Of a stretch of DNA of 64,000 nucleotides, positions 34,101-51,277 are shown in pieces. Origin of the DNA: a virus; IMG/VR virus record IMGVR_UViG_3300037567_000704, positions 1-64,000 of that record; one strand, written 5' to 3'. The first letter of the stretch is position 1. Every line of letters starts with the position of its first letter. Below the pieces are notes generated by a model. The model did not search any database, was not told the origin of the DNA, and was given only the letters and a program-made list of their open reading frames with translations. The translations under genes were made by a program, and so were the position numbers.

Positions 34101-37100
34101 CTGCATGTATAGTTTTGACTATACACTTAGGGTTTATCGAGGTATTCTGCAATACATGTGAGTATATCGCAGGGTATTTCGAAGGATATCCAGCAATTGT
34201 TAATTGCACTCCTATACTTCCGAAGGTACTTCTCTTCATCATGTAGTAGTTATCCAGACGATGGTGTGTTAAATGCTTGAAATTATTAGATGAACCATCA
34301 TCTGGGGCTATTTTGTGAACTATGCTCCACCAAGGAATATTGAGAGTGTAGCCCGGTGTGGAATTACTGAACAGTTTTGGATGATAAGGAAGTGTTCTTC
34401 TGGTGAAAGCAGGTGATTCAGTGCCTTCTACCCCAAACGGGTTGTAGAGTAACAAAGGAGGTATGTTGGTGAACTGTTCACCGTGGTCAGGATTGATATC
34501 CAGCATAACCTCATTGATGAAAATCTCACAACCTCTTACATCTGCTTGAGTTGTTTGAGCCAATAAAAGGGCAACTGCGCCTGTGCCGCTTATTCCAGAA
34601 GTCGCTGGTTTGCGTCCTATGACTGTATTCACCTGTTGTCCTGTTAGAGTATAACTGCCACCATCAACGTGATATCCGATTAATTGGTTGGAAAAAGTAT
34701 TCGGCTGTATGACGATTTGATACGCTCCTACTCTTGCTGGGTCTGGGAAAAAATCGTCCAATGTATAATTTCCAGAGGCTTCCAAAACTACGGTATGGCC
34801 TCCTTGTTGGTTGATTTTTCCAGCAACACCAGTAGATGCTAAAACCCCGTAACCATCGTTTTTCAGTTTACTTTCGAACATCAAAGTGAATGCTCCACCA
34901 TGAATATCGCTTGGACCACTAGGCGCAGCATTCAACGAACCGAATGCAATTTCTGCATCTTGTAGATGAAAATAATTAGATACTCCTGACGCTATATCAC
35001 TTTTTTCTGTGGTCGCTGTCGTATTTTCTTTGAGTAGATTCCTATCTACAGAGCCTCGCAGTGATGCATTTTCTGCAAGATGACTACGATACAGTCCTTG
35101 GTATACAGGGTGAGCCCAATGACCCGGAAGCATGGGCATGGTCGGTGTGACGAAATGATGCCCCATTCTCGGTAGAGGCATTGGTGTAATCACCGCTTTG
35201 TTGTAGATGTTGTAAGCGAGAGTCTCTGTATTGATGGTCCCGTAGGTCCCTGTCGAATACTGGGTTTTTGCCATGTCTGGGGAATTTCCACTCACTTCAG
35301 CGTGGTCTCGTAAACGACGTGCTGCGAAGAAGCGATTGCTTCCTGCGGGGATGTAATAGGAAGGAACCACTTTCAGATTCGTAATAGTTTGAGCAGCCAT
35401 GAAGTCTGTAAAATCAACGTCACCCACAACACCAGTGAATGTTTGTCCACTTATTCCGGTATACGAAGCCACTACACTTTCTTCAGTAGATGAATTGTAG
35501 ATTCTGATAAAACGCCTACCAGTCGTTGTATGAGCCATTTCCTTGCTACCGAAATCAGCAGCAAAAATATCCGTATTAGTGGTCGGCATTAAAACTGCAG
35601 CATTGACTGTCAAAGTTGTCCCACTGAAAATACTCGCAGTTAAAATTCTTGTCTCTACACCATTTTCGTGTGAAAAAACTGTCGGATAACGGTGAGTGTG
35701 ACTGTGCCCCATTTTCGTAACGTGGAAGTAGAGAGTCCTGTCATGCTGTTCGTAACTGGTTCTCAATGGAGCGTTGTCTGTGGTCTCTTTCCAACCAGCA
35801 GTAGTGCTGTCCTTGGTCAATGGGTCTATGTGTTCCCAGTTGTGGTCTTCGTATGTCGGTCCCTTTCTCGGACCAGAGACGCTGTTGTCGAACAAATTAC
35901 CCAGATAATCCTCATTCAAATCAGCATGCATCATTCCTCCTGAACCCATAGTTTCGTTCTGATAACCTTGCAGTCTATCGAATCCTGACCTCACGATGAT
36001 GTTTCCGGGTATGCTGTTCGGGTCTGGTAGTTGTATTTTCAGATTGGGGGCTATACCACTGTTTGCAAGAGACGGGGACATTCCTTTGGCCTCTCTGTCA
36101 GTTACTTTGCTGAAACCTCGAATGATGGTCCCCAGTGGGCTACCGCCCTCGATTATGTGCTCTTGCCCGGAATCATCCTTGACGGTGATTTCCTCGAACT
36201 GCATTTCCTCGTTCGGAATATTCAACACGTTTCCTATCAACAGGGGATTTTTGCTCGCTAACTGAGGATGGGCTATTTCCTGTGCTTGTAGAATTGGTAG
36301 CATAGCACTGTTTGTAGTCTCGAAAGAAAATCTCACATTCCCGAAAATCTTCTCTCCAGTAGTATACGCTACGCCGTTTTTCACCCTCGTCATCCAAGGG
36401 ACAGCGCCAAGCCCTCGTGCGTTAATTGCAGGAAGACTGAGATTTCCGCCATCCATTCTCTTCCATACTATTTGTTCTACCGTGAAGTTTTTCGCAGGCG
36501 CTCTATCATAGAGGGCGTATGCATTCACATCTCCTGCCCAAAAATCATTGACTCTCAAAGTAGAACCGTTATCATATTCTGTCGTATAATCCACATCTTC
36601 ATAGAAATCATCTGCAACATTGCGCGTCACTCCTGAGTCTTCCAAGAAGAAAGAGCCTATGGAGTGGTCAATATCGAAGAGCATATCTCCTGTTTTGTGC
36701 AATCCGGGTATGGCGTTTTCCACTGTGGTGTTGGTGGCGGCAGCCCCATGCAGGAAGTATTCGGCATTGAATGGCGCAGCATCTGCTCCATGCGTAGCGG
36801 AAAACGTGATTGAGGGAACAGTAGGAGTCTTATGCACCAGCGCTTCTACATTAGGCCCAGCATTCGCAGGTGCGATGAAACGGTCTTGACCGTGGAACCT
36901 CTCGTCCCAACGTGTCGTGCCAGCATAATGTATGGGATTTGAAACACTGTTAGCAGCCGCCCCTTTGACTTGTAACCAGTCTCCTAGAGCAGTTATGCCA
37001 TCTCTGTCATATTTTGCTATGAGAGCGCTCTCGCACTCGTAACTCACGACGAGGAATGCTCGACCCAACACCCCTTGTGGATGAGTCATGAAATCCGGTA

Positions 37101-40100
37101 GTGTGGTATCAACGTAAATCGGGGGTTTTGAGTGGAGTGTGTCTGGCCCATCATTATCAGATGTTTTTCTCGCTCTGGTGTAACCTGTATCATGGGCCAA
37201 TGTGAATCCTGTAGTATTGGCGTAAGGGACATTCAGGAATCCCATGAGATTAACGCCAAGATTGTCTATTGGTGGTAGACTCTCAGGACTTCTGGGCATA
37301 GGAGCCACCACTGGTAGATTACCAAATGCAGTCATAGCAGAACTGGCACTGCCATAAGGAGAGAATCCTAACATCGGATGCCAAGCGCCTAGACCCCCAG
37401 CATACCCTTCTGTGCCCACTTTGAGGCTGTTCAAGTAGGAATAGCGCTCTCCGGCCCATCCTGCTGCTCCTATCGGTCTGGTGCGGTCTATGGCATCAAC
37501 GATTCCAGAGAAGTGAGTCTGGCACATATGGTCGCGTGTTGCCGCTACTTCGTTGTTGTAACGATGAACTCCTGCTTTCGACCAGACATGTAACACATCA
37601 CTAGCGCTTATGGCTGGGAAGTCACTGATAGTTCCATCAGTATCATACCAAGTGGTTCTGTCTTCAAACTTCATCTGCCCGCTTATCCTGTTAGGAGCAA
37701 TGTAGAACCTCACTTTGAGAGTAGAGTCGTTATTCACCTCTCTCGCATAGTAAGGAGCAAAGCCGCCAGCAGCAGTCCTCAGCCAGCCGCATGCCGGTAT
37801 CTGTTCCAAACGGTCTCTATTGACTGTATTGTTAGCAGTATAGCCGCTCATTTCCACAGTGATGTGATTGTTGCTTGGCGTTGTATTTGAATTGGTGATA
37901 TTGGTGCATTCGACTTCTACCCAACCATATCGGTCCTGTCGCATGGAATTACCCATAGACGGCATGTGTGTCCCTCCCATCGCTTTGAGCGCCCCTGCTC
38001 CGGGATAGGTGTTGATTGCCATACCCATCACTGTGGCGAGTTCCTCTCCATTCTGGCATCTAGTCGCATCAACGATGATGTATTCCATATCCACATCAGC
38101 GCCTACCAAATCTCCTTCGGCTGCTGCATAACCCAATACCTTCGTGGTTATTGGACCAGCGACTCTGTATGCGCTTGAGTGCAACTGTGTTGCTGCTCCC
38201 CATTTTTGCAGGATTGTATTGCTCTTGGGATGAGGCGGGTTGAATGTGATTTGGTTGTCCATCCAGTGTCCTCCGGGATGGTAGCCTCCATCCATGTGGA
38301 AGACCATATCAGCAGCCATTGCCACACCATGCCCTATCACTGAGCAGTGCCTCATTGGATGGGCCCTGTCTAGTTCGTCGTTTATTCCGGATGTGGCTGT
38401 GTCTGCGTTGAAATGAGTCCCATACATCCTTCCTGACTCTGGTCCTTGTTTGAGTATAGCCACATTGGGCTTTCCTTGTGGTGGCTCCCAGTTGATAGTG
38501 GAACGCCAGTGGAATCTGCCTCTCGCCAATTGATATGTCGAGGACTCAGGCATGTAGAAGCCATCGTAGTTCTGTATGTGATTCGGTAGTTTAACCGTCC
38601 CAGACACTGGGACTTTGGACCAAGTGTTACCTATCGTCACCACTGCTCCGGGATGAGGCTGCTCTGTGTTAGCACCACTCATGTTAGCGCTATCTGCTAT
38701 CTCTTGGGTGAACGGGAATGCCTGTCCGGGACCGAAGACGATGTATGTGGTCTTGTTCTCCACATTGCTCGTGCCACTGCTGTTCTTGTGGTCCTCGTAA
38801 CGCGCTGTGGGATGAGCGAATCTCAGTATGAGTGGGCTTGGTTTCTGAACTCTCACTCTGAGCGATGTCGTGGAGTGATTGTATGGGGAGGTATTACCGC
38901 TGTTGGGATGCCCGGTGTTTATCGTAGTCCCTGTCTTTGAGAGGTCCGGGGATAGGATGCTATCTTTGTTGAAGAACGGCGGTAGTATGCTGCCACGATG
39001 CTGATTGCAGAATGCAGCGCCGGGGAAGAAAGCGAACATCGCATTGCAGTCCAACAAAGCGAAACTGGTGGATATCTCGTTGGCATTCTGTATTCCTGAG
39101 GTCCCTGTGGGTCCGTTCGCATAAGGATGGGTATAGAATGTGGAGTAGTCATTCATAGTCCCGTCGTTTATATCGAGGGTCACACCGCTGAATCCACCAC
39201 CGAAGAATAGTGGAACGCTGTGGTCCACACTGCCCTTCCCTCCTTTGAAATGAACTATGGGTTCTGAGAAAACACTACCGAGAGAACGAAGCCCGTCGAA
39301 CTCCATTGTTCTCTTGATGTCTCCGAAATGTGAGAATGCAAGTGTGTCGTCTATATCAGCAGTAGGCCAATCCTCGGACCTGCCTTCCTCATACCATACC
39401 AATGTAGTCTTGTTAGTCACAAAAGAAGCAGTGCCGGGATTCAAACCCTCGACTACGATGAATTGCTTATCAGCCATGTAGATTGTCTTCTTCTCACCGA
39501 AGGATGGAACTCTGTCTGTGTTTCCCTCCTCCCCTGCCGGTATCAGGAAGTTCCACATCTCATGAGCCAAAGGGAACTGTTTGGTCGTTCCATCCCAATT
39601 ATCACTATTTCCAGCAGAGTTGTCGTAAACAACAATCGGGTTGTTTATCATCGGTAGGATGTGGTCACCACTGTGTCTGGTGAAACTCTCTCCTTTGAGG
39701 TTCCTTCTCCATTCATTGGTGTCCACCGGGTTGTTGAAGGAGTCCACGAGTAGTGGTGTTGCTGTATTGGTGTTCGGTCCTCTGCCTCTTGTTATGATTT
39801 GTAAGACTGTGTCGGGTATGTAACCACAAGCCATTCTCTTCTGATTTTTGATATCGGTATTTGAAAGGGCTCTAGATGTCCCGAAAGCCCAACCAGAACC
39901 AGTATTATCAGTCTTCTCAACCTCTCCTAACTCTATGTGTGCTGCTTGTATTCCCATGTCCCGATGAAACGAGGCATAGAAGAAGTCAGAAAGGGGTTTG
40001 ACTGGTTTCGTTGTGTCATAACTTCTGATTATAATTGCGTCTGCAGCAACTCCCCATTCTCCAAACGTCCTACCATCTGTCGCATACATCTCTCTGCAAT

Positions 40101-43100
40101 CGAATGCTAAACCCTTTGGATTGTTGATATCTGAATCATCAGCGTTGATTGCTGCGGTTGAGATTACTGCAAGCAACTCGTCAGTGACTATAGTGGTCCA
40201 GTTCAATAATGGTGAAATCAAATATGAATTAACAAATGTGTCTCCATTCTGTGAACTCTTTATCCCGAAGAAAGTATGTGGTCCACTTTTGTTGTTCTGT
40301 GTTCTATGAGTATAGGAGAAGGTCATGCCCCCCTTTCCATCTTGAGAATCCGTGATTTGGATGACTCCATTCTTCAGAGGAAAGCCGAGATAACCGAGTA
40401 TGTCATGATGTGCACAAGTGTCTCCGTTTTGAAACGGTCTCTCTAAACTCACAGTAAGACTTGTAGCATTAGCGCTCTTGCTTATAGTGCAATTCACCGC
40501 TATGCTAGGCGCACTAACCCCTCTCCACCTGTTGCCACAATAGGCTTGGTCTGTAATAGAAACAGCAGAGCCAGACCCTCCAGAAATGTCCAATCTACCA
40601 GAAGCGTCTCCACTACCATACATGTGTTTGCCCATAGTGAATCCACCAAGACCCACGTCTCTGTCGTCAATGAAAACACACACTTCGTTGGATATTGTGT
40701 CTGGCAGGGTGGTGTTCTCGTTTGCGAAGCCCTCACCCATAGTCCTGTAGATAAATCTCAGACCGTGTTTTCCTCCTCTGTGGTCCTCGAACTGCAGTCC
40801 ATACAAAGAGGAGTTTCCCACTACATCCGACTTCAAGTCAGAGGAATTGGTATGACTGGTATAAGAGACATCAGTGAGACTGCCGTATCTGCCTCTGAAC
40901 TTTTGAGAGCCCTTCTTGCCGAATCCCCACACACCTGCGTCTGGAGCCCAACCGGGAATGCCAGATGCTACAAGTCCACCGAAGTTCACTCTCCCTATCG
41001 CTCGCTTACCTACTCTCAGACCCTCTACCAATACTGATGATGAGCCCTCAGTCTCGAAAGACTCGGTATTGACTGTATTGAACTGTTTACCACTACCCAA
41101 ATGGTGAGATGTTCCCCTCAACACAGAGGCATCTGCATCTGTTACATTATCATCGAAGGTCACGAAGTCGGTATTGCTCACTACATCTTCACCAGAGTCC
41201 TCTGGGGTGACGTATTGTGTGAGTGTGGTGACAGGAGCGAAAGGTCTACCATGCTTGTTGAGAGGCATGGGAGCGGGATGCATGTTCTCTCCCTCCTTCT
41301 CCTCAGGCAATGCCCAGAAGTTCCTCCAACGTCCTCCATGTCCAATGAGGAACTCAGGCTGATAGACTGATTGTCCCTTGCTGTTATCCAGCCAAACGCA
41401 GAAGTTCCTACCACTCGCTCCCGGCACAGTGCTATGTATCACCACAGTGAATCCGATATTTCCGTTCTTGTCTTGCACCTCTCTGCCTATGTGTGCTCTG
41501 ACATAGCCCATGTGAGTCCCTCGGTCACGAGTGGAGAACGCCTTGTCACTGTCCCACCAAGCAGTCGGGTCATGAGCACTGCCTGTAGTGTCCTTGTCCA
41601 CTACTATCTGTCCCTTAGGCGCTCCTGCTTGGTTGATTTGACGAACAATCTCCAATGCAGCAGACTTTACAGATACCACTCCGTCCTTCTGAGCCACAGA
41701 GCCACAGTCTACCGTTAATCTCCTCACGAAGTCCATGTCCGTCCACTGTTTGAGGTGCTGCAAACGAGATTCCGAATGTGATGTAAGGTCGAGTGCATTT
41801 GCTCTTTTTCCTTTAAGGCAAAGGAAAGCAGGTATGACGCGAGTTCCGTCTGGGGTATCGAAGAACGTGGATGGGTCTCTGAGAGTATGAGAAATGCTAG
41901 TATCTGTCCTCAACTTGACTAGAGAGGTAGTAAAACTATCTGATACAGAGCGTTTCGTTCTTGAGAAACTGTGGTCTGGATTCGCTATGAGTGGATTGAC
42001 TGTATTGTCGTTGGTTCTGAGTAAGACGCTGTCTCCTTCTGAGAAGGTCTGGTAAGCACCGTATATCGAATACCCATCATGGACGTGATGCCCATGAGCC
42101 TTTCCATATATGCCCGGAGACAAAGAGCCACTTGCATAGTTGAACATGCTGTTCGGCAGAGTCCCGCTATTGAGTGAAGTAAGTAATCGAGTGGATAGGC
42201 TGTTCGCTATATCATGAGCATAGGCACTCTCGATGAACTTGGATTGCTGAACACTGCGTATGTATGGGTTCTCGCTTGGGAAGCCGTTAGCAACGTCTAT
42301 CTGAGTAGTAAGCCAAGAAGGTCCTCCGCCATTTAGTGTAGCGGCGTATTCCATCGTATCTGAGATTACATTGCTTGTACCAATCACCATCTTCTTAGGC
42401 CATCCAATCTTGACAGCATCAGCGCTAGTCTGAACCTGCATATGCAGGTCTTGGAATGCCACGAACTCCCTGTCATGGGCGACATCATAGAGAAGAACAC
42501 GAGCATGTCCATCCTCTGAGAGATAGGGGTCCACATAAGCGACCTTGGGCGCTTGACTCGCTGTCAGACCGAGAACCTTGTAATTCTCCTCTACAGTCTT
42601 GTTCACATGCTGGGCGTAATTCTGTGCAGTTTCAAGACAGGTGTCTCCAATTAGGAAGTTTTCAAGCGGTATGCTCTCTCTCGGTCTTGTGGCTAATGCT
42701 CCCTTACCACCGTTGAACCCCGTCCACACTAATGCCTCATTGAGAACCCCTCTGCTCTTAGAGAAGAGTCCCTCTATGGAATGTGGGTTGTTCATACTCA
42801 TGTTGGCCCATATCGTATCGCCACTACGCAGTCCACCCGGAGCATATGGATAATTCCAAGTTTTGTTCAGGATTGCCTCATCATCATCTACCTGCGGCAT
42901 TTCAATACGAAGAGGCTTGCTACTGGTATCGTTTTGGCAACTCCCAGTCAGAGTCACTGTGTAAGTTCCGTCATCATAGTCCTCTATATGAGACACTGTT
43001 CCGATATGTAGAATCTTACTCGCAGTTTCTTCTGAGTATATCGAATCCCCCTCTCTGAGGTTCAGACCCGATATTGTGTTCGAACCGGCCAATCTACCAT

Positions 43101-46100
43101 TCCCATTGGTAATAGTGCAGGTTGAGACGAGAGTTGATGCTGAGATAGTCCAAGCATCATCTCCTGCTGGTTTGAAAGTCTTGGCGATAATCTCATTGTT
43201 AGCAGCCTTGGTTGTATTGCTTGGAGGAGCACCACTTACGTTTCCGAATATGCTCCTCGTCTTCTTAGTGAGCGTTATCTCATTACCGGGCAGATTGGTA
43301 ACCCAAGAAGGCTTACTGTTACCAGTATCATAAAACACGAACATTAGAGTGTTGGCAGATACAACCTCATTAGAGGTGTTCTTGCTGATTCTTCCATAGT
43401 AATGCATGCTGCTCGGAGACAGAGAAGCACTTGCATCTGCTTGATAGAGATACTCTCCAGAACTGAAGGTATATGTATTCATATCATCATAATCTAAATC
43501 TGGGAACAGAGCCATATCCTCATCACTCATAGTTACAATTAATTCATGAATGAACTTAGAACTAGCGCCATCCAATACTGACCACTCTACGTTAGTCACT
43601 ACGCCTGTGGCTCTACCACTCATCACTTTAGGCGCGTGAGGATTGCTTTCCGGTCCAGCCTTGAACTCCACCGCGCTGACATACTGTCTGATACCGTAAT
43701 CCACATTGCCTCCCTGTGTCTTCGCGCTTGCACTGTCATGGTAGTATTCACCTCTGTTCTCGAAATCAGAGGACGGGGTTATGCTGTCAGAGCCTATGGG
43801 TATGAGTCCCTCTGATAGAGAAGGGCCACCCGGTGAAACGGCTGCTCCCACTACAGCGCTTTCTACAAAACCGCTTGAGAAACCCCAATTGCTATCATTG
43901 GGTATTTTGAGATACCGTGTGCCCACCAATGGTATGTCTTCGTAATATGCCCATTCCCCATTAGCGAGGAACACCTTACGGTAGTTTCTCACGTTACTGC
44001 CGACGTTCTGGTATGATGCATCGCTCAGACTTACACTGTGGAACAACTCGCTATTGTCTGGGTGAAGGTGATAGAATGAGGCAACTAACTCGAACTTGTC
44101 AATACGGGTTATGGGCGTGAACTTCTTCTCCGCCTTGTTCATCGTGAAGGAAGACCTCGCCTCTCTATCTGCAGGCTCTACTCCCTTGTGTCTCCTACCT
44201 ACAGGGCTGGGGTTGTATGTGTGTGCAGTCTGAGTAGCATCAACATGAATCTTGAAGGAGTTGTCTGGTCCGGGTAGAATACCCTTCTCAGGCTCATCGA
44301 AGAATTGGTTAGCAAAGAATGGAATCTCCACTATCGCTCTCGTACTCGCGTATTGTGTTCCCAACTGGTAATCATGAGAGACATCGTTCATAGTCTGGAA
44401 CATCCTGTCATTGACAGTGGTCCCATCCTCAGCAAGCGATGACTCATCGAAGAACTCGTCATTGAAGAACGACGTTGAGATATACATGTCGCTACCATTA
44501 GAGACTGCGCCTAATGCTGTCTCTGTTGCCTCCAACCATTGAAAGAAATTTTGGAACTCGGTTCCGTTCGCTAACAAGAACTTACCATCGCCAAAAGCGC
44601 TAGCAGCAGTGAATACGAACTCGTCTCCGTCCTTGGAATCGTAAAGAGCATTAGAACCGTCCTCCAAGTAGACTCTGCCCTTCATCGGGAATCCGTAAGT
44701 CCCCCAAGACGCAAGGTCGTCTGCTTCGTTGTTGAGTGGTTTGACGTAGATTTTACCACCATTAGTCGTAGTTGTGATTCGGTAACCAAGTGTAGCACAG
44801 TTCCTCCTCGTGGAGAAGGGCAAGCGTGCTAACGGACTGGGGTCAAACGTCGGTTTGGTGTCCATAGCCCCTTGTCCGGGACCACCGAGAGTAACCGTGA
44901 CGACAGGCGCATTGGGTTCTATCTCCTTGACTATGTGAGAGTCCGGGCTGCCTTTACCTCTCACGCTCACGTTCCTGTTGGCTGTGGATTCTGACAGACC
45001 CACGCAATGGACAGAGGTGAAGTTCTCACCTTCCTTGTCTGACTCTTTGACAGAACGGACTCTGGCTCTCGACATGAGATACATGAGTGATACAAAGTTC
45101 GCCTCCTCACCATCACTAACGGAAGAACGTATCTTTGCGAGTTGATTCACTCTTCTTCTGTCAGAAGGCTGTATGAACAAACGCATTCCTTCCTTGTTAC
45201 CACTGATGGAACCATTGTCAATAATATCGAACATCTCGTGAATATGTGTATTGGAAGAGGTGACCCCCTTGTCGAATTCACCGTTGGAAGGAGAATCGAG
45301 GACCACGCTAGGCTCCCTTCTGTGAAACTCCCCCTTGTCCGTCAAAGTCTGATTTTTGTCTCCATGGAATGTATCAATCACTATACGATGAAATACCGAA
45401 TCATGACTTGTGCTCGGTGAATGGGAAGCGGTTATGATTTGTGGAGTAGTATTGGGATTTATGTTTGCAAGAACCCCTACATACAATTCCTCCCCATTGA
45501 TTAGGGCAACTGCTCGATTCTCGTCCAATGTGATATCATTTCCTATTGATGCTATTATACCCACGAAAACCAGACTGGAGGTGTAGATAGTATCATCCAC
45601 TGCGATATTGACGTTACCAGTTGTATTACCTGTTGTGGTTATCGTATTGCCGCCACCAGCATTCTGATTACCGCTAACAGTAATACCTGTAGGAGTCAGT
45701 GGTTTGTAGTTGATAGGAGTGAGACTCTCATCCAACTCGTCATCAGACTCATAGCCTTCACTCGTATCTCCAACAAGAGAATGTGATTGTATCAGATTAC
45801 CGACTAATTGCTGACCTTCGAATCTCGCTTCTATGTAACCTCCGGGAGCATAAAGGGTAGCAGTGATAGAAGCGCTGGTCACTGCAGTTTTTATCAATTC
45901 GTATATGGTAGTGGTTCCTGTGACCACTGTGGTCCCTGCAGGAACGGTCTTTTCCACCATCAACAGGGGTTGGATAGTGCCACTCATGCTTGCGCCAGTC
46001 AAATCAATAGCGTTGTAGTAAATTTTGACGAATGGGGCTAAGTCGTAAGTAGAAAGTGCTGGAACATGTAATATGGCTACCCGACTCTCCTCACTTGGTC

Positions 46101-47952
46101 GTAAGTGATGCCTTCTGGTCTCAGCATTGATATTATCCAGATTGTCTGGAACTGGGCCTTTGAGCATGAAAGCCTTGTAATCGAAATTAACTCCACCTAT
46201 CGCCAAGAGTTCCTTGTTCTCCTTGGTGAGACCGTTGTTGAAGAGCGCCTCACATCTAGAGGAATTGACGACTTTATTGATTTCGAAAACATCTTGTTCT
46301 CTGAAGATGTCTACACGACTGTTCACTGATATCTGTTCGCCTGCTCCCGTTCTTCCTACATCGTATATGATATCAATCAAATCAGCAGACCCGTCTATTC
46401 TCTGGTCAATTATTTCCTCGTTCGCTCTTGGTAACATTCTCAGGAACTCGTGCCCATCAACGTGATTGAGTATGTGTCTGCCACTATGTCCTATCTGAAA
46501 AGAAGTATCAACCGTAGCAGGCCAGACAACAGCGAAGGGATTATCACTGTCATCAGTGGTATTAGCCATGTTGCTTGAATAAACGAAACCGTGTTGAGCG
46601 AATGGGCTCTCGTCAATGACCATCTGACCCGTCCTGTCAATTATCTGTGTGGAGAAATGAGGGTCTTGGTATGGCTTTCCTGTAGCATTGTCGATGAGCA
46701 AGTCAGCGCCTATTACTACGAAGTGATTGTCCAATCCTGTTGTTCTGGTGTGTAAGGCGCTACGAAGCCCATTGCTGGAATTGGGAAAATCAAGATGGAT
46801 GCTGGAAACTAGCATGTTTCCAGTGGTTGTGTTTATGTTATGGAGTCTGACCCTCTCTGGTGGTTTACCGTTCGGTTTGTGAGTGTCCAAGTCTATGCCC
46901 CCAGCATTGATGAGAAGATTGTATGGAGTGTGGGAAATGCTGTGCATCACCGGAGTGCCAGTTGATTGTTGGTAATCCACCACCTTGTAGTCCCCACCCG
47001 AATACTTGTGAGTCCCAGTGCTGTCCTTGGAAAAGACATAGTTACCTGATACCGTTGATAGTCCGGTCAGTTTCTTGGCCAGAGTAATAGCATCAGTTGT
47101 GGTTATTGTGATTTGAGATATGGTAACAGTAGCGCCATCCATAGTGGTGCTGTTGTTGGCAATGGCAGAGAACTTGTAGGTCCCTGAGATAGGAGCGATT
47201 GGCTCCTCGAACCTGTAAAGCAATAACGTATTCTCGTTCCTGAGTGGTGCAGACCTGTCAATAGCCTCCTCTGAAAAATCGCTACTGATATGAAGGGCCT
47301 CCATCACACCTCTGAACTTGCCTCCTTTACCTCCTACATACAGATGTGAATCGTAATTCGCTATGGTTACATTCCTGTTCAACAAGGATTTTTGAACCAT
47401 TAACACCCCATTGATGTAGAGGTCTATCGAGTTCGACCTTACAGTAGCCACAATGTGAATCAACGGCCTGTGGTCTATGTTCAAAGATGTTGCATCATCA
47501 GAAGAACCATCATACCTGTTGTAGGAATCATGGATTCCTCTGAACTCTGCTGGAGGGTATACCGTTCCCTCGTAGCCTCTGCTGGTCACTGACTTTGCTG
47601 TAGAGAGAGTCTCGACTACAGTGCCGCTGTCAGAATTGAGATAGACTTCGAATACAGCAGGTCCGGGAGTATCAACATCTCCGATTTTCAATCTGAACTG
47701 CCCTTCCTTCTCTACTACAACGCCACCACAGTCAGGAACCACCCAAGCCTCGATGCACAACTGATTGTTGAGAGCACCAGACAAATTGCCGTGACTGCCT
47801 GCTTGGTTGTCTTCTCCTAGTATGTTACCTACGCTCTTGGTCCCCTGTGTGGTTGCCTTGCCTAGTCTGCTCATTGCCCCTTGTGGGACGATTATACTGT
47901 CAGTCACCCCATCGAACATGAAAGCGTGATTGGAACGACTCATTACTGGCAT
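31156..47952 (-). CDS. Giant 5,598-residue tail protein with LamG-like domains
   Basis: A single uninterrupted 16.8-kb frame, about a quarter of the window, preceded by GAGGTGA. Residues 30-240 look like a LamG/concanavalin-type beta-sandwich (LCIEAWVVPDCGGVVVEKEGQFRLKIGD, IHIVATVRSNSIDLYINGVL, FRGVMEALHIS). A second such domain is near residues 4340-4490 (GAFTLMFESKLKNDGYGVLAST, YQIVIQPNTFSNQLIGYHVDGG). The rest is beta-rich and non-repetitive, high in His, Trp and Tyr, without obvious membrane segments. It lies between tape-measure/baseplate genes and the hub-like gene, so it is probably a tail-tip or tail-surface component that binds glycans. The viral chaperonin could help with smaller proteins, but this chain is far too large for one chaperonin cavity. 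Confidence 0.8.
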   Translation of the reverse strand: MPVMSRSNHAFMFDGVTDSIIVPQGAMSRLGKATTQGTKSVGNILGEDNQAGSHGNLSGALNNQLCIEAWVVPDCGGVVVEKEGQFRLKIGDVDTPGPAVFEVYLNSDSGTVVETLSTAKSVTSRGYEGTVYPPAEFRGIHDSYNRYDGSSDDATSLNIDHRPLIHIVATVRSNSIDLYINGVLMVQKSLLNRNVTIANYDSHLYVGGKGGKFRGVMEALHISSDFSEEAIDRSAPLRNENTLLLYRFEEPIAPISGTYKFSAIANNSTTMDGATVTISQITITTTDAITLAKKLTGLSTVSGNYVFSKDSTGTHKYSGGDYKVVDYQQSTGTPVMHSISHTPYNLLINAGGIDLDTHKPNGKPPERVRLHNINTTTGNMLVSSIHLDFPNSSNGLRSALHTRTTGLDNHFVVIGADLLIDNATGKPYQDPHFSTQIIDRTGQMVIDESPFAQHGFVYSSNMANTTDDSDNPFAVVWPATVDTSFQIGHSGRHILNHVDGHEFLRMLPRANEEIIDQRIDGSADLIDIIYDVGRTGAGEQISVNSRVDIFREQDVFEINKVVNSSRCEALFNNGLTKENKELLAIGGVNFDYKAFMLKGPVPDNLDNINAETRRHHLRPSEESRVAILHVPALSTYDLAPFVKIYYNAIDLTGASMSGTIQPLLMVEKTVPAGTTVVTGTTTIYELIKTAVTSASITATLYAPGGYIEARFEGQQLVGNLIQSHSLVGDTSEGYESDDELDESLTPINYKPLTPTGITVSGNQNAGGGNTITTTGNTTGNVNIAVDDTIYTSSLVFVGIIASIGNDITLDENRAVALINGEELYVGVLANINPNTTPQIITASHSPSTSHDSVFHRIVIDTFHGDKNQTLTDKGEFHRREPSVVLDSPSNGEFDKGVTSSNTHIHEMFDIIDNGSISGNKEGMRLFIQPSDRRRVNQLAKIRSSVSDGEEANFVSLMYLMSRARVRSVKESDKEGENFTSVHCVGLSESTANRNVSVRGKGSPDSHIVKEIEPNAPVVTVTLGGPGQGAMDTKPTFDPSPLARLPFSTRRNCATLGYRITTTTNGGKIYVKPLNNEADDLASWGTYGFPMKGRVYLEDGSNALYDSKDGDEFVFTAASAFGDGKFLLANGTEFQNFFQWLEATETALGAVSNGSDMYISTSFFNDEFFDESSLAEDGTTVNDRMFQTMNDVSHDYQLGTQYASTRAIVEIPFFANQFFDEPEKGILPGPDNSFKIHVDATQTAHTYNPSPVGRRHKGVEPADREARSSFTMNKAEKKFTPITRIDKFELVASFYHLHPDNSELFHSVSLSDASYQNVGSNVRNYRKVFLANGEWAYYEDIPLVGTRYLKIPNDSNWGFSSGFVESAVVGAAVSPGGPSLSEGLIPIGSDSITPSSDFENRGEYYHDSASAKTQGGNVDYGIRQYVSAVEFKAGPESNPHAPKVMSGRATGVVTNVEWSVLDGASSKFIHELIVTMSDEDMALFPDLDYDDMNTYTFSSGEYLYQADASASLSPSSMHYYGRISKNTSNEVVSANTLMFVFYDTGNSKPSWVTNLPGNEITLTKKTRSIFGNVSGAPPSNTTKAANNEIIAKTFKPAGDDAWTISASTLVSTCTITNGNGRLAGSNTISGLNLREGDSIYSEETASKILHIGTVSHIEDYDDGTYTVTLTGSCQNDTSSKPLRIEMPQVDDDEAILNKTWNYPYAPGGLRSGDTIWANMSMNNPHSIEGLFSKSRGVLNEALVWTGFNGGKGALATRPRESIPLENFLIGDTCLETAQNYAQHVNKTVEENYKVLGLTASQAPKVAYVDPYLSEDGHARVLLYDVAHDREFVAFQDLHMQVQTSADAVKIGWPKKMVIGTSNVISDTMEYAATLNGGGPSWLTTQIDVANGFPSENPYIRSVQQSKFIESAYAHDIANSLSTRLLTSLNSGTLPNSMFNYASGSLSPGIYGKAHGHHVHDGYSIYGAYQTFSEGDSVLLRTNDNTVNPLIANPDHSFSRTKRSVSDSFTTSLVKLRTDTSISHTLRDPSTFFDTPDGTRVIPAFLCLKGKRANALDLTSHSESRLQHLKQWTDMDFVRRLTVDCGSVAQKDGVVSVKSAALEIVRQINQAGAPKGQIVVDKDTTGSAHDPTAWWDSDKAFSTRDRGTHMGYVRAHIGREVQDKNGNIGFTVVIHSTVPGASGRNFCVWLDNSKGQSVYQPEFLIGHGGRWRNFWALPEEKEGENMHPAPMPLNKHGRPFAPVTTLTQYVTPEDSGEDVVSNTDFVTFDDNVTDADASVLRGTSHHLGSGKQFNTVNTESFETEGSSSVLVEGLRVGKRAIGRVNFGGLVASGIPGWAPDAGVWGFGKKGSQKFRGRYGSLTDVSYTSHTNSSDLKSDVVGNSSLYGLQFEDHRGGKHGLRFIYRTMGEGFANENTTLPDTISNEVCVFIDDRDVGLGGFTMGKHMYGSGDASGRLDISGGSGSAVSITDQAYCGNRWRGVSAPSIAVNCTISKSANATSLTVSLERPFQNGDTCAHHDILGYLGFPLKNGVIQITDSQDGKGGMTFSYTHRTQNNKSGPHTFFGIKSSQNGDTFVNSYLISPLLNWTTIVTDELLAVISTAAINADDSDINNPKGLAFDCREMYATDGRTFGEWGVAADAIIIRSYDTTKPVKPLSDFFYASFHRDMGIQAAHIELGEVEKTDNTGSGWAFGTSRALSNTDIKNQKRMACGYIPDTVLQIITRGRGPNTNTATPLLVDSFNNPVDTNEWRRNLKGESFTRHSGDHILPMINNPIVVYDNSAGNSDNWDGTTKQFPLAHEMWNFLIPAGEEGNTDRVPSFGEKKTIYMADKQFIVVEGLNPGTASFVTNKTTLVWYEEGRSEDWPTADIDDTLAFSHFGDIKRTMEFDGLRSLGSVFSEPIVHFKGGKGSVDHSVPLFFGGGFSGVTLDINDGTMNDYSTFYTHPYANGPTGTSGIQNANEISTSFALLDCNAMFAFFPGAAFCNQHRGSILPPFFNKDSILSPDLSKTGTTINTGHPNSGNTSPYNHSTTSLRVRVQKPSPLILRFAHPTARYEDHKNSSGTSNVENKTTYIVFGPGQAFPFTQEIADSANMSGANTEQPHPGAVVTIGNTWSKVPVSGTVKLPNHIQNYDGFYMPESSTYQLARGRFHWRSTINWEPPQGKPNVAILKQGPESGRMYGTHFNADTATSGINDELDRAHPMRHCSVIGHGVAMAADMVFHMDGGYHPGGHWMDNQITFNPPHPKSNTILQKWGAATQLHSSAYRVAGPITTKVLGYAAAEGDLVGADVDMEYIIVDATRCQNGEELATVMGMAINTYPGAGALKAMGGTHMPSMGNSMRQDRYGWVEVECTNITNSNTTPSNNHITVEMSGYTANNTVNRDRLEQIPACGWLRTAAGGFAPYYAREVNNDSTLKVRFYIAPNRISGQMKFEDRTTWYDTDGTISDFPAISASDVLHVWSKAGVHRYNNEVAATRDHMCQTHFSGIVDAIDRTRPIGAAGWAGERYSYLNSLKVGTEGYAGGLGAWHPMLGFSPYGSASSAMTAFGNLPVVAPMPRSPESLPPIDNLGVNLMGFLNVPYANTTGFTLAHDTGYTRARKTSDNDGPDTLHSKPPIYVDTTLPDFMTHPQGVLGRAFLVVSYECESALIAKYDRDGITALGDWLQVKGAAANSVSNPIHYAGTTRWDERFHGQDRFIAPANAGPNVEALVHKTPTVPSITFSATHGADAAPFNAEYFLHGAAATNTTVENAIPGLHKTGDMLFDIDHSIGSFFLEDSGVTRNVADDFYEDVDYTTEYDNGSTLRVNDFWAGDVNAYALYDRAPAKNFTVEQIVWKRMDGGNLSLPAINARGLGAVPWMTRVKNGVAYTTGEKIFGNVRFSFETTNSAMLPILQAQEIAHPQLASKNPLLIGNVLNIPNEEMQFEEITVKDDSGQEHIIEGGSPLGTIIRGFSKVTDREAKGMSPSLANSGIAPNLKIQLPDPNSIPGNIIVRSGFDRLQGYQNETMGSGGMMHADLNEDYLGNLFDNSVSGPRKGPTYEDHNWEHIDPLTKDSTTAGWKETTDNAPLRTSYEQHDRTLYFHVTKMGHSHTHRYPTVFSHENGVETRILTASIFSGTTLTVNAAVLMPTTNTDIFAADFGSKEMAHTTTGRRFIRIYNSSTEESVVASYTGISGQTFTGVVGDVDFTDFMAAQTITNLKVVPSYYIPAGSNRFFAARRLRDHAEVSGNSPDMAKTQYSTGTYGTINTETLAYNIYNKAVITPMPLPRMGHHFVTPTMPMLPGHWAHPVYQGLYRSHLAENASLRGSVDRNLLKENTTATTEKSDIASGVSNYFHLQDAEIAFGSLNAAPSGPSDIHGGAFTLMFESKLKNDGYGVLASTGVAGKINQQGGHTVVLEASGNYTLDDFFPDPARVGAYQIVIQPNTFSNQLIGYHVDGGSYTLTGQQVNTVIGRKPATSGISGTGAVALLLAQTTQADVRGCEIFINEVMLDINPDHGEQFTNIPPLLLYNPFGVEGTESPAFTRRTLPYHPKLFSNSTPGYTLNIPWWSIVHKIAPDDGSSNNFKHLTHHRLDNYYMMKRSTFGSIGVQLTIAGYPSKYPAIYSHVLQNTSINPKCIVKTIHAESSGTREITVDDASAFPETPQYGQLLEFTDADGNIQTLPYTRRYGLQIGTINEPKKFTSTTVSGSFWTKLTALLAASVETTLRLTHPYNNLSAGKVMTDTNNSIFTMILPQVEKGTRDTTALHIPDAYLCLWHYNLGRPHTFYSDSSRTWGNLTSDRAVDKKPYNCMPEHFETIHYQDSVYAMSLGPFDFRMKSPNPEDKDGVASTGAEIHAFSGYEAQGGTNFDSQKIMFSKFWPCGSRGGPLTSRLDLYTQASISWNIPRKYASNDFYFWNDEDGLDENYAQGSSGITFTAMGSGYSGDNRKYPYGWRIAVRQACNKPTWGILTGRGKLEDDASSDNNFTVDYASGPLVQHEAMTWAYAGGDTGSQSNVSYTTTYVGVMERQTNFAGMLGCDKPEWQVKYSEGRRMTRPFGTPIRTLLSNSNMNKDWWGEVAGKGIYSLAEAAQYYLVDWWGNERGEDVRRAPVRGFGIRPAWDCGDVYEYDRANNRTPHARIWNYGKPIYEVLTGISAPVIDSSGNLDNEPPLLCGRSNAVNNTDTNTMVDVFAPTHSMRIGDMGNGRGVRYPIQFNEDILTELSEPIHTTGLVLSSNTAEPPAVTGLLRPRNDVLQADEIPRGISARLEISEHGLLKPDAVVSDRVEEIIGTSPHKDAVSRNSPRIGIDGHNVESVEKDHIAINTEAHSLHTDRNVGQRTILHGCLLGGSQTLAHLDLTSLAFGVQPRSALRFSHTSNMSPLGGNYILETRNYGNPFDDTGWGYDGLSGAVKTTNPYQNVDFNRTTIKNNQSDKSIKWLLRPVRLLDKNHVEMFRTLPATISGTPQYNNTVNKGTNTPTDYFRASAGGKYGIYTYEVTTPRVASNNFPSSAAPNTNAPYVPVFYMASGSSTITPTSQGPKILGTEVVGVDKFDKTTITSPVTRLVMSENTLQHYRSDAPRRRQIAENESEIKRMDFSVKPRFSQALHPKGHKGDVTFNVSDHSGDAA

Positions 47953-47961
47953 TGCTTCACC

Positions 47962-49221
47962 TCAGATTGACCTATCTACTGGGATGAAGTTCATCACGAA
48001 ACCATAGACGTTCTCACCGGCTTCGTATGTGATATCCAGTTTCTGAACTACCCCCTTAATCCCTGCTCTGTTACCGTCTTTGGTCAGGTCTGCGCTCGCT
48101 ACGAGAGTGTTCCCTGCACTAGACTTATCCGTAGGACTTTTACCCCAACCAGTAGGCATGATGAAGTTACGAGCGACATAGGTCTTGCCGTCTGACTGTA
48201 TGGTGGAATTGTATGGAATCTGTATACCTATGATGTAATCGCTACCCATTCCTGTGCCTTCTAACATCATACCAACTCCAGTAGCCGCTATTCCTCCAGT
48301 CATTCCTATGCCTACTACTCCTACACCAGTGCTCGCAAGTGCAACAGTGGCTACTCCACCAGTAAGAGCCATGAGGCCACCAGTAACAATCTTACCAGCG
48401 CCAGTCCTCTTCATATTGTTCATAAGACCATACAAATCCATGGCCTTGTCGCCAGCGGATTTCTTTACCACGGTTCTCCCTCCCACGAAATCAGAAGTGT
48501 ATGGGGCGCTGAAACCAGCGCCCAAATACTTCCAATCCGGGGTCACGTTGTTACCTGCTTTCCCAGCAACGTCTTGTGATATCTTCACAGCGCCCGCAAC
48601 TTGCTTTATCGTTGAATCAATAGCAGTAGCGGTGAATACAGCGGCCAACGTCGGTTCATTATTAATCAGACTGATGAAGCCATCGCGCAAGACTGTCGCA
48701 GTTATACTACTACTATCTGGATTGATACCCATCACATACGACCCATTCGTCGTATTGGTGACTGTCCCGCTTGTCAGTTTTTTGAAGGATATCGTAAACT
48801 TAGTCCCATTTGAGGCTGCGAGACGAAGGATAGTGAGACTGTATGTATCACCACTACTATCGTAAGTATTCTGAGTATTGAATAGATTTGCGAGATTATT
48901 TCTCGTTATATTTGTAGGACCATCTATGAATGAAATAGTCGCATTAGCCCAGCCGACAGGATAAACAGACGTGAAATCAACTATGCTAGAAGCAAGACTG
49001 TCTGTTCCCACTATCTCCTTATCATCAGTGAAGACTCCATGGACGATTACAATGGCCTTCTGCATGTTCATATCCAAACCGAACCTCTGTCCACCAGAGA
49101 ACGGGACTGCCATGCCGCCAGCCTTCCTGCTGGTAGTGAGAGTTATGCTTGTGGCATCCAATTCGATTAGACCGCCATTTTCTTGAACCAGACGAATCGG
49201 AACACCATTAGCCGCCACCAT
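47962..49221 (-). CDS. Tail/baseplate protein with hydrophobic Gly-rich segment
   Basis: 419 residues. The N-terminal half is beta-rich (IRLVQENGGLIELDATSITLTTSR, QKAIVIVHGVFTDD), similar in position to distal-tail proteins that follow the tape measure. Around residues 275-320 is a long hydrophobic Gly/Ala/Val stretch (GGLMALTGGVATVALAS, VGVVGIGMTGGIAATGVGMML) that could form two membrane-spanning helices. The C-terminus returns to beta structure. A membrane-active segment next to the tape measure could serve in DNA entry through the host membrane. The start overlaps the tape-measure stop (TAATG). Confidence 0.6.
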   Translation of the reverse strand: MVAANGVPIRLVQENGGLIELDATSITLTTSRKAGGMAVPFSGGQRFGLDMNMQKAIVIVHGVFTDDKEIVGTDSLASSIVDFTSVYPVGWANATISFIDGPTNITRNNLANLFNTQNTYDSSGDTYSLTILRLAASNGTKFTISFKKLTSGTVTNTTNGSYVMGINPDSSSITATVLRDGFISLINNEPTLAAVFTATAIDSTIKQVAGAVKISQDVAGKAGNNVTPDWKYLGAGFSAPYTSDFVGGRTVVKKSAGDKAMDLYGLMNNMKRTGAGKIVTGGLMALTGGVATVALASTGVGVVGIGMTGGIAATGVGMMLEGTGMGSDYIIGIQIPYNSTIQSDGKTYVARNFIMPTGWGKSPTDKSSAGNTLVASADLTKDGNRAGIKGVVQKLDITYEAGENVYGFVMNFIPVDRSI

Positions 49222-50030
49222 TATGCATACCTACCCTGTGTCGTTGTTCCTCCCATTCCTCTAGCCATTTCCTCTTGAATGAGTTGTCCCATCTCTCTTG
49301 CTACTGACCTCTTATCAGTTCGGTCAGTCATTCCGCTAATCTCTATGTTCATAGTCATGTTCTGAGTGATTCCGCCTTGAATAGCAGTGCCCACAGTGGT
49401 AGTGGATTGAGTGTTCGTTCCTCCACCTCCACCGTATATTTTATCAATCGCTTTTCCTATCACATTACTGATTGCATTCTTAATTTTCTTTATGATGGCC
49501 CAGACATATTCGAAAGGCACTTTTATCTTGTCGATAACACCCGTCATAACATCTTTCAGAGTGTCCTTAAGACTCAGCAGTTTGTCTTTAATCCCACCCA
49601 TTTTGGCTTTCAGATTTTTGAGAGCCTTACCAATAGCCTCCTTGATAGCAAACGGTATTCCGAGTATGAAGTCCTTTACCCCACTAAGTTTCTCGATTAT
49701 TCCATCTTTGAGATTTCCTAACTTCTCAGGAATGGAGCCTATGGCTCCAGATATCTTCTCGACCAACCCCATGAAAAGGTCTTTGAATATTCCCAAAATC
49801 GTCTTTGCTCTTTCAATCCAAGGCTCAAGAATGGGTGCTATATGTTCTTCCCATAGAGACTTTATTTTATCGAATGTCTCTTTAGCGGCACCACTGAACT
49901 TGCTCCAGATTTTACCTAAGAACTCACCAACTTTACTTATTCCGCTTTGAATGCCCTCCATAGCACCACTGATGATTTGAGTAGAAGAGTTCACTGCAGA
50001 GAGACTGGTTAACAGCCCTGACAATGCCAT
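49221..50030 (-). CDS. Short tail tape measure protein
   Basis: 269 residues, almost all amphipathic helix with hydrophobic periodicity (IQSGISKVGEFLGKIWSKFSGAAKETFDKIKSLW, IPFAIKEAIGKALKNLKAKMGGIKDKLLSLKDTL). A Gly-rich break (YGGGGGTNTQ) precedes a C-terminal segment MTMNIEISGMTDRTDKRSVAREMGQLI. This composition, and a position right after the frameshifted tail chaperones, identify a tape measure. At 1.5 angstrom per residue of helix it would set a tail of about 40 nm, short for a siphovirus. It lacks peptidase or transglycosylase domains. Confidence 0.82.
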   Translation of the reverse strand: MALSGLLTSLSAVNSSTQIISGAMEGIQSGISKVGEFLGKIWSKFSGAAKETFDKIKSLWEEHIAPILEPWIERAKTILGIFKDLFMGLVEKISGAIGSIPEKLGNLKDGIIEKLSGVKDFILGIPFAIKEAIGKALKNLKAKMGGIKDKLLSLKDTLKDVMTGVIDKIKVPFEYVWAIIKKIKNAISNVIGKAIDKIYGGGGGTNTQSTTTVGTAIQGGITQNMTMNIEISGMTDRTDKRSVAREMGQLIQEEMARGMGGTTTQGRYA

Positions 50031-50311
50031 CAGAAGTCCTCCTGTTCTAAGAACGAGTAATCGAAAGTGATAATCTCATTACTATCAGTGCTCTCAGCGA
50101 ATTTCTGACGAGCGACTTCCTTCTCTTGCTCTTCCTCTACAGCCAATGCCCAAACGAGCGATTGCGTGAAAATCTCCTCACTCATCTGATACACTTCCGT
50201 CAATGAAACACCGTAGTGTTTCGCTACCATATAGGCAAACAGTTCTAGTTGCAGCGAGATGTCTTCAGGGGATTCTATTGTTTTCCTCTGAAGAAACTGC
50301 TGCACCTTCAA
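50030..50311 (-). CDS. Tail assembly chaperone, downstream (T) part of a G-GT pair
   Basis: 93 codons, helical and acidic (ISLQLELFAYMVAKHYGVSLTEVYQM, EEEQEKEVARQKF). The only in-frame start is a TTG overlapping the preceding stop, but the frame is also open back through GTT TAC CAA AGC to a run of seven G at 50329-50335. A -1 slip there fuses it to the protein encoded at 50308-50676, as in the lambda G-GT chaperones that wrap the tape measure. It lies just before the tape-measure gene, as expected. Confidence 0.82.
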   Translation of the reverse strand: MKVQQFLQRKTIESPEDISLQLELFAYMVAKHYGVSLTEVYQMSEEIFTQSLVWALAVEEEQEKEVARQKFAESTDSNEIITFDYSFLEQEDF

Positions 50312-50676
50312 CTGTTCGCTTTGGTAAACCCCCCCGACATGGCCTCTGCTAATTCATCAGGTTTAGGGAGGAGATTGGCCAACTGCTCCCCCACGTAAGC
50401 ATTGAGTTGGGTTATTTCTTCTGCAGTCAATTCCGGCTCGGTCCCCACTACCCAGTTTGTGAAGGCATACTTCCAGTATGCTTCGAGGTCAAGCGTTACA
50501 CCCTCTCCTCCTACTACAAACATTGTCTGCGCGGCTTTCTGGACATCGAGATACGAAATCTCTCTTATCCACACCAATAGCATGCTGTCCGGGTTATCCG
50601 GGTCGGCACGTATCTCATACTGGTGGTCATTCTTCTTCGTCAATATTTTGTTCTTTTCCACTACTGTCATTTTCAT
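50308..50676 (-). CDS. Tail assembly chaperone, upstream (G) part
   Basis: 122 residues: VVEKNKILTKKNDHQYEIRADPDNPDSMLLVWIREISYLDVQKAAQ at the N-terminus, then a helical EELTAEEITQLNAYV-type segment. A small mixed protein between tail tube and tape measure whose last codons cover a G7 slippery run is the hallmark of a G-type tail chaperone. Most ribosomes would stop at the TGA at 50308-50310; a minority would slip to give the GT fusion. Its start lies about 50 bp inside the end of the SAP-domain gene; ATG codons at 50676 and 50670 are both possible. Confidence 0.8.
   Translation of the reverse strand: MKMTVVEKNKILTKKNDHQYEIRADPDNPDSMLLVWIREISYLDVQKAAQTMFVVGGEGVTLDLEAYWKYAFTNWVVGTEPELTAEEITQLNAYVGEQLANLLPKPDELAEAMSGGFTKANS
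50329..50335 (-). promoter_or_regulatory. -1 programmed ribosomal frameshift site (G GGG GGG)
   Basis: In the zero frame the minus strand reads TCG GGG GGG TTT. Slipping back one base lets both tRNAs re-pair on GGG GGG, then GTT TAC CAA AGC GAA CAG TTG continues without a stop into the downstream chaperone frame. This fits the X XXY YYZ rule with all G. A stimulatory structure was not checked. Confidence 0.8.
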
Positions 50677-51250
50677 TCACTTCCTCGGTTGCAGCCGTAT
50701 CTACGGGGGCATCCAATGATTCCTCGGCAGCCTCTTCCAAGGGGGCCTCGGTCTCATTTTCTGTCGGTTGTGCTTCTGTGATTCCATCATCGTCTCGTCG
50801 TAATCTGAGAACGACCTCTGCTTTGGTTCCACGTATCGTAAGACCTCGTTGTCTGCATACATCTTGCAGTTCACGTATGGTATACGAATTGTAATCATTA
50901 AGGATGAATGGAGAGTCCACCAATTCTTCAGGTTCAGGCTCAGGTTCAGGCTCAGGTTCAGGCTCAGGTTCAGGCTCAGGTTCAGGTTCAGGCTCAGGCT
51001 CAGGTTCTGTTAGAACAATACCCTCATCATCAGAAGAATCAGTCCAATGAACTCCAGTCACGTCTATTGCCGCTTGAACCCATGTTGGCTCTTCTTCTTC
51101 CTCATAATGTAACAGAGTCTCAGCGAAAGCATCAATCTCATGTCTTGAGCCCAGTTGGAGCATTTCCTCATCCATCTCTATACCAATCCTATCAACTAAC
51201 CACATGACATAATCTGCTCTGCTGTTCCTGTTGTAGAATCGCGCTCTCAT
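50627..51250 (-). CDS. Acidic virion-region protein with SAP domain and Pro-Glu repeat
   Basis: 207 residues from the ATG at 51250, which has GGAGG five bases before it (an ATG at 51268 is less likely). Order: a helical N-terminal domain (ADYVMWLVDRIGIEMDEEMLQLG), a tract of 13 Pro-Glu units, a SAP-type helix-extended-loop-helix (YTIRELQDVCRQRGLTIRG then KAEVVLRLRR) expected to bind DNA, and a long acidic tail. Placed between tail tube and tail chaperones. Compare the protein at 56801-57238, which also joins a SAP-like domain to an acidic tail. Role unknown; it may be a DNA-binding assembly factor. Confidence 0.65.
   Translation of the reverse strand: MRARFYNRNSRADYVMWLVDRIGIEMDEEMLQLGSRHEIDAFAETLLHYEEEEEPTWVQAAIDVTGVHWTDSSDDEGIVLTEPEPEPEPEPEPEPEPEPEPEPEPEPEELVDSPFILNDYNSYTIRELQDVCRQRGLTIRGTKAEVVLRLRRDDDGITEAQPTENETEAPLEEAAEESLDAPVDTAATEEVNENDSSGKEQNIDEEE
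50929..51006 (-). repeat. Hexanucleotide repeat encoding Pro-Glu tract
   Basis: Thirteen tandem hexamers, CAGGTT or CAGGCT on the plus strand, encode alternating Glu and Pro in the SAP protein. The synonymous third-position changes suggest it is old enough to have diverged. Confidence 0.9.
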
Positions 51251-51277
51251 TCTTCCTCCCGGCAACATAGTCTAACC

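Follow-up and report, generated by a model that had tools for sequence, protein, structure and literature searches.

A predicted programmed -1 ribosomal frameshift between two tail chaperone genes of a putative archaeal tailed virus, with one slippable tetramer conserved rather than seven G

Two overlapping reading frames, here called A and B, lie directly before a tape-measure-like gene in a viral genome, and the second has no conventional start codon. The question raised by this locus is how B is translated and whether the element responsible is the seven-G run close to A's 3' end. The window, meaning the whole stretch of DNA analysed, comprises 64,000 nucleotides (positions 1 to 64,000 of IMG/VR virus record IMGVR_UViG_3300037567_000704, which is 86.7 kb long). 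A reading made from the window's letters (the sequence-only reading) had proposed that ribosomes slip back by one base on the G run, joining two chaperone ORFs just before the tape measure as in G-GT of lambda-like phages. The features of the locus are as follows.

50308..50676, minus strand: gene A, predicted tail assembly chaperone (G-like), 122 aa, zero frame (ORF, fold, PHROG match)
50343..50346, minus strand: SD-like GAGG, ending 10 nt before the slip tetramer
50329..50335, minus strand: seven-G slip site G_GGG_GGG, read TCG GGG GGG TTT; the conserved tetramer G_GGG is 50329-50332
50326..50328, minus strand: UUU (Phe) codon 3' of the G run, invariant, and part of U_UUU in other viruses
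50320..50325, minus strand: spacer of 6 nt from UUU to the stem (fold and alignment)
50310..50319, minus strand: 5' arm of the stem, 10 bp in the window (fold z -6.65, covarying pairs)
50235..50244, minus strand: 3' arm of the stem (fold and alignment)
50030..50329, minus strand: B (T-like), -1 frame, from slip point to stop, 99 aa after the shift
50030-50311, minus strand: B as a separate ORF with a TTG start (ORF listing)
50309..50311, minus strand: TTG start of B, overlapping A's stop as TTGA, with no SD at the right distance
49221..50030, minus strand: tape-measure-like protein, 269 aa (PHROG tape measure families, best E 2.1e-11)

The plus strand reads CCCCCCC at 50329-50335 and the G run is therefore on the minus strand, where gene A ends TCG GGG GGG TTT ACC AAA GCG AAC AGT TGA; the proposed reading of the run at the end of the upstream gene was borne out. 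No stop codon interrupts the -1 frame where it passes A's stop: it is open from 46 nt upstream of that codon's end to the stop at 50030. A slip would thus lead, as had been claimed, through a stop-free frame into B, and on up to the tape-measure-like gene. The predicted A-B fusion is 215 aa long. The tape-measure-like ORF begins with an ATG that overlaps B's stop and has AGGAGG upstream. Its matches to PHROG tape measure families are, in our reading, partly of the coiled-coil type.

The neighbouring genes are on the same strand. Between a 747-aa protein and the chaperones lies a SAP-domain protein with a Pro-Glu repeat (50627-51268; Pfam E 3.4e-9), which overlaps the start of A. Just after the tape-measure-like gene and a 419-aa gene is a single ORF of 5598 aa (31156-47952), probably a giant structural or tail protein, which takes up about a fifth of the 86.7-kb record.

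Relatives of the locus were collected from viral contigs. Searches with A as query gave 55 related loci and searches with B gave 14; a profile of A found 155 relatives and one led by a distant member found 131, the best 80 of each being kept, so that more distant sites lie outside the sample. Relatives of A reach down to 29% identity, and one locus (L001) is a 100% match to the window's A. In the genome contigs collection no relative of A was found, and sequence searches of A, B and the region against named phages gave no match. Among 224 loci with both A and B, many of them from the same contig, 84 distinct 140-nt sequences were taken as sites. The window itself is counted among them; one of 225 loci was excluded because it is the window's own stretch with A and B not read in forward frames. 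As the sequences are related, none of the counts over 84 sites are independent.

At all 84 sites (65 from a first listing and 19 more), B lies in the -1 frame relative to A. This bears directly on the reading that the frame break stems from gene decay or from a mistake in sequencing or assembly. Homopolymers are error-prone, which would fit a break at a G run; the same frame relation at 84/84 sites, in relatives as divergent as 29% identity in A and with the B protein conserved, refutes this reading, and we give it practically no weight.

Conservation of the frame does not extend to the seven G. The 64-kb window contains two G/C runs of seven bases, so that a G run alone is weak proof of a slip site; the other is a C run on the plus strand at 20197-20203, within a long minus-strand ORF (17873-22324). 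Among the relatives, UUU was taken to be the final in-frame TTT close to the 3' end of A, where it lies 9-24 nt ahead of A's stop. All 84 sites have Gly, Ser or Ala at codon -2 and Gly or Asp at codon -1, indicating that the located UUU is the conserved Phe codon. Every site carries exactly one slip tetramer in register, never both and never neither. In 47 of the 84 it is G_GGG directly before UUU (GGG GGG TTT in 42, TCG GGG TTT in 4, GCG GGG TTT in 1), and in the other 37 it is U_UUU (GGG GGT TTT in 29, GGA GAT TTT in 4, GGG GAT TTT in 3, AGT GGT TTT in 1). By the same criterion, a slip tetramer is found at 72 of 694 Phe codons elsewhere in A and B. The base preceding the 42 GGG GGG TTT sites is G in 10, the window among them, and A in 32. 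A conserved run of seven G was thus rejected as the element (G_GGG_GGG in 10/84, A_GGG_GGG in 32/84), and of the conserved frame and slippery heptamer expected in homologues, the frame was found throughout and the heptamer was not. The conserved element is one slippable tetramer. The canonical form X_XXY_YYZ is fitted formally by the window's G_GGG_GGG and by GGG GGT TTT (29/84), and is not fitted by A_GGG_GGG (32/84) or by sites with GAT TTT (7/84).

Codon choice around the site is also restricted. Codon -1 before UUU encodes Gly at 77 of 84 sites, as GGG (47) or GGT (30) and never as GGA or GGC, which account for 140 and 109 of 543 Gly codons elsewhere. Where codon -2 is Gly it is GGG in 74 of 78 cases, compared to 76 of 520 elsewhere. 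The third base of codon -1 is silent in A and in the -1 frame changes the residue among V, F, I or L; neither protein therefore readily explains the missing GGA and GGC. On a quick tree of the A and B proteins, from which the site was excluded, the slip type switched nine times, six of the switches being forced by well supported branches. The window's nearest sister on this tree (L074) is of the U type.

These substitutions also bear on whether the fusion could arise from RNA polymerase slipping on the G run, with no part played by the ribosome. Seven G is a length at which polymerase slippage is conceivable, and the window carries exactly that. However, 37 of 84 sites have U_UUU instead, five sites have no run longer than GGGG, and slippage by the polymerase would not need the conserved codon register or the spacing of the SD-like motif and stem described below. 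It was rejected as very improbable.

If ribosomes do not shift frame, B must be started independently. The sequence-only reading gave the downstream ORF a TTG start, and the window indeed has a TTG at A's stop and a GTG two codons later, its only early starts, neither with an SD at a suitable distance. B could in this way be a separate protein, made by ribosomes that terminate at A's TGA and reinitiate at the NTG overlapping it. Among the 67 sites where A ends in TGA, the overlapping codon is TTG in 26, GTG in 22 and ATG in 3, which would suit such a mechanism. An NTG in the -1 frame is, however, forced by any TGA stop in this register; the overlapping codon is CTG in 16 of the 67, and A ends in TAG or TAA at 17 of the 84 sites. 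No ATG, GTG or TTG is present in the first 10 codons after the slip at 33/84 sites. Within about 12 codons, 55 sites have a start without an SD, 28 have no start, and one (L119, with an ATG 12 codons in) has a start with an SD; the next gene, by comparison, has an ATG with an SD at 76 of 84. Homologues with a conventional start and Shine-Dalgarno for B, which would have spoken against a frameshift, are therefore represented by this one site, and a conventional B start was rejected for the family. In addition, the B protein is conserved from the slip point on (G-V/F-Y), upstream of any start, and reinitiation leaves the conservation of the slip tetramer unexplained. We regard reinitiation as an improbable route to B, though in certain viruses it may contribute some free B.

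An SD-like motif is found upstream of the slip site. GGAGG or GAGG ends at a fixed place, 14 nt before UUU (10 nt before a G-type tetramer), at 53 of 84 sites, and the window's GAGG stands at this 10-nt distance, comparable to the roughly 10 nt in dnaX. Any SD-like motif is present in this stretch at 66 sites (79%), compared to 15% of 6956 control positions in A, and is absent at 18. The codons that build the motif are biased, GCG being used for 46 of 58 Ala (172/1000 elsewhere) and GAG for 64 of 69 Glu (652/1540 elsewhere), with p values for both that are overstated because the sequences are related. The 16S rRNA of the Poseidoniaceae MAG that holds the best match to the virus's chaperonin ends in GGATCACCTCCTA, with ACCTCCT present at the 3' end, and could thus pair with the motif. 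In haloarchaeal viruses HVTV-1 (L226, 7950-7971) and HCTV-5 (L310, 13866-13887), GGAGG lies exactly 10 nt before G_GGA_AAG; HCTV-1 has GGGGAG 8 nt before G_GGA_AAC. The spacing in HVTV-1 and HCTV-5 suggests that an SD-like stimulator may occur more widely among tailed viruses of archaea.

Downstream of the slip site the RNA is predicted to fold. The window RNA 3' of UUU has a predicted energy of -38.8 kcal/mol (z -6.65). For the 100 nt that follow UUU, z averages -3.70 across the 84 sites, 68% of which score under -2. Mean z ranges from -0.51 to -0.06 in the control stretches at -200, -110, +110 and +200; the one at -300 has a mean z of -1.70 (84 sites), which is also above-chance stability. 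This last value hints that in the relatives the RNA is structured some 300 nt upstream of the slip too, close to where A begins. At most 1% of synonymous versions of B are as stable as the natural RNA at 33 of 39 sites in the window's clade, 7 of 25 in a second clade and 3 of the remaining 20, which belong to distant clades and have no significant stem on average (mean z -0.24).

In the window's clade (alignment A8, 39 sequences, 36 distinct), the fold is an 11-pair helix beginning 6 nt after UUU, 10 pairs of which form in the window; this lies within the 5-9 nt 3' of the slip at which the dnaX stem is placed. Of the 396 cells of this helix in the 36 distinct sequences, 98.2% are paired, as compared to 31-43% when the arms are slid, a control tilted in the helix's favour because the structures of A8 to A10 come from folds of the same sequences. 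Two pairs vary on both sides (A-U/G-C and C-G/U-A, 24 cells), by changes that leave the protein of the -1 frame unaltered in either arm (CAA CTG or CAG TTG). A tree-based test of covariation in independent pairs gave p 0.125-1, there being too few pairs. The second clade has different stems at the same 6-nt spacing. RNAalifold found only four pairs when this clade was kept mixed, and the stems appeared once it was split by subclade (alignments A9 with 11 and A10 with 13 sequences, 24 of the 25; L053, a near copy, was omitted). A search of Rfam with 50150-50420 gave no match. The sequence-only reading had described the signal as a slip site by itself; the site stands, and the SD-like motif and the stem have to be added to it.

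The proteins were compared with known chaperones by structure and by profile. According to its model (pLDDT 83.8), protein A folds like tail assembly chaperones. In BFVD the model matches a predicted tail assembly chaperone of HHTV-2 (E 1.5e-5, TM 0.67), several phage chaperones and, weakly, Mu FS-gp41. A second structural comparison, against the PDB, gave YqbN (3klu, Z 5.8), ORF19 of a PICI-like element (Z 4.5) and the HK97 chaperone (2ob9, Z 3.8), with unrelated chains at 2.5 or below, all of these Z values being modest. By sequence, A matches PHROG 25860, a tail assembly chaperone family, at E 0.0053. The model of B is helical (pLDDT 83.9) and had nothing distinctive among its PDB matches in the second structural comparison. 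Foldseek searches of A and B against the PDB gave no match under E 0.001, and PDB sequence searches with profiles A3 and A4 gave no credible match. PHROG scans with 34 members of A and of B returned weak, mixed matches, and a profile comparison (hhalign) with the HVTV-1 chaperone was colinear and weak, with a probability of 21%.

Taken together, these results point to a programmed -1 ribosomal frameshift of the lambda G-GT type, with a three-part signal like that of dnaX, in a tailed archaeal virus; we put the probability of this reading at about 0.92. The proposal of a shift joining two chaperone ORFs just before the tape measure is supported by the 84/84 homologous sites, and further by the family-wide absence of a usable B start, the fold of A and the fused chaperones annotated in haloarchaeal viruses. 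Most ribosomes would read A to its stop and make a short chaperone. A minority would pause, with the stem at the mRNA entrance of the ribosome and the SD-like motif paired with 16S rRNA, slip back one base at a GGG or UUU codon and continue into B, which would give a long chaperone, A-B, 215 aa in length. In the window, tRNA-Gly would slip on G_GGG; in sister viruses, tRNA-Phe would slip on U_UUU, mostly within G_GGU_UUU. The slipping itself, its rate, the tRNA that is moved and the function of B are what we infer.

The two slip types may differ in more than the codon used. In both, the distance to the stem from the first base of the codon preceding UUU would be 12 nt, which would put UUU in the A site of a paused ribosome and GGG or GGU/GAU in its P site. 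For the U type, tRNA-Phe could re-pair perfectly, as could tRNA-Gly at G_GGU. For the G type, the P-site tRNA-Gly would re-pair perfectly and UUU would mismatch, which suggests either a P-site slip with an empty A site or an earlier double slip on G_GGG_GGG. A tentative proposal, to which we give a chance of somewhat more than one in three, is that the site alternates between two single-tRNA slip modes one codon apart, with the stem and the SD-like motif holding the pause point in place; the G type would then slip by P-site tRNA-Gly alone, the A site (UUU) being kept empty by the stem. One transversion, GGG GGG UUU to GGG GGU UUU or the reverse, would switch the mode. If true, a slip of P-site tRNA-Gly alone would be a mode that is not among the efficient E. 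coli motifs. Two results in E. coli count against the frameshift reading: in the part of PMC4066793 that was available, the signal from a G_GGG tetramer construct is attributed to SD-driven initiation and not to frameshifting, and G_GGG_GGU without a stimulator is the weakest heptamer. The class D_DD.U_UU.H, which G_GGU_UUU fits, is given as efficient in a eukaryotic system.

The host is plausibly a member of Poseidoniales (Marine Group II), which are abundant archaea of the sea, judging from the gene content. The virus has an MCP (family phrog_24667), a protease, a PolB, a clamp loader and a group II chaperonin (14278-15780, plus strand; Cpn60_TCP1 E 8.6e-126). The closest cellular relative of the chaperonin is in a Poseidoniaceae MAG, at 43% identity, and the nearest named relatives of the capsid are haloarchaeal viruses.

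Recoding in archaea has been little studied, and the reviews, in their available portions, list for archaeal -1 frameshifting one well-studied cellular case and a few haloarchaeal viruses. The available text of PMC10160649, PMC8651126 (where the word occurs only in a reference title) and PMC10768690 does not describe a frameshift in magroviruses, a genome figure in the last labelling a tail assembly chaperone gene, and neither does the full text of PMC12999244; a wider literature search, of partial coverage, returned no fitting paper. The present family offers a natural series in which slip codons and stems change while the spacing stays fixed, and rules for archaeal ribosomes would thus be directly testable. 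For the annotation of marine archaeal viruses, A and B should be joined. From the point of view of tail biology, this is one more instance of a very old phage trick and only moderately surprising; this version of the trick and its evolution look new.

Phage lambda G-GT slips on G_GGA_AAG. The present locus shares the G-GT arrangement, in which two ORFs overlap just ahead of the tape measure gene, the second in the -1 frame and without a conventional start, and differs in having G_GGG or U_UUU, a stem conserved by clade and an SD-like motif. As far as the available parts of PMC5009743 and PMC8211752 go, frameshifting in the chaperone genes is a widely conserved feature of long-tailed phages, with reports of a -1 shift in HVTV-1, HCTV-1, HCTV-2 and HCTV-5 and of a +1 shift in HSTV-2. 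The Druskaviridae HVTV-1 and HCTV-5 likewise have an annotated joined chaperone directly before the tape measure (HCTV-1 has it two genes before), and HVTV-1, HCTV-1 and HCTV-5 share a homologous MCP with this virus, at about 31-32% identity. Unlike it, these three have the heptamers G_GGA_AAG or G_GGA_AAC, a chaperone that is barely alignable and another host group. The halovirus Hardycor1 is reported to have a G GGA AAT slip near the end of its first chaperone gene, before the tape measure; in contrast to the window's family its heptamer is of the canonical A type, and the available part of its description (PMC7911831) mentions neither SD nor stem. The closest likeness in signal is to E. coli dnaX, which also combines an SD-like motif with a slip site that is closely followed by a stem of about 10 bp (available parts of PMC7282821 and PMC8211752). 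dnaX, however, slips on A_AAA_AAG and yields a shorter product, whereas here the product would be longer, the slipping tRNAs would be those for Gly or Phe, and the stem encloses about 64 nt with inner helices.
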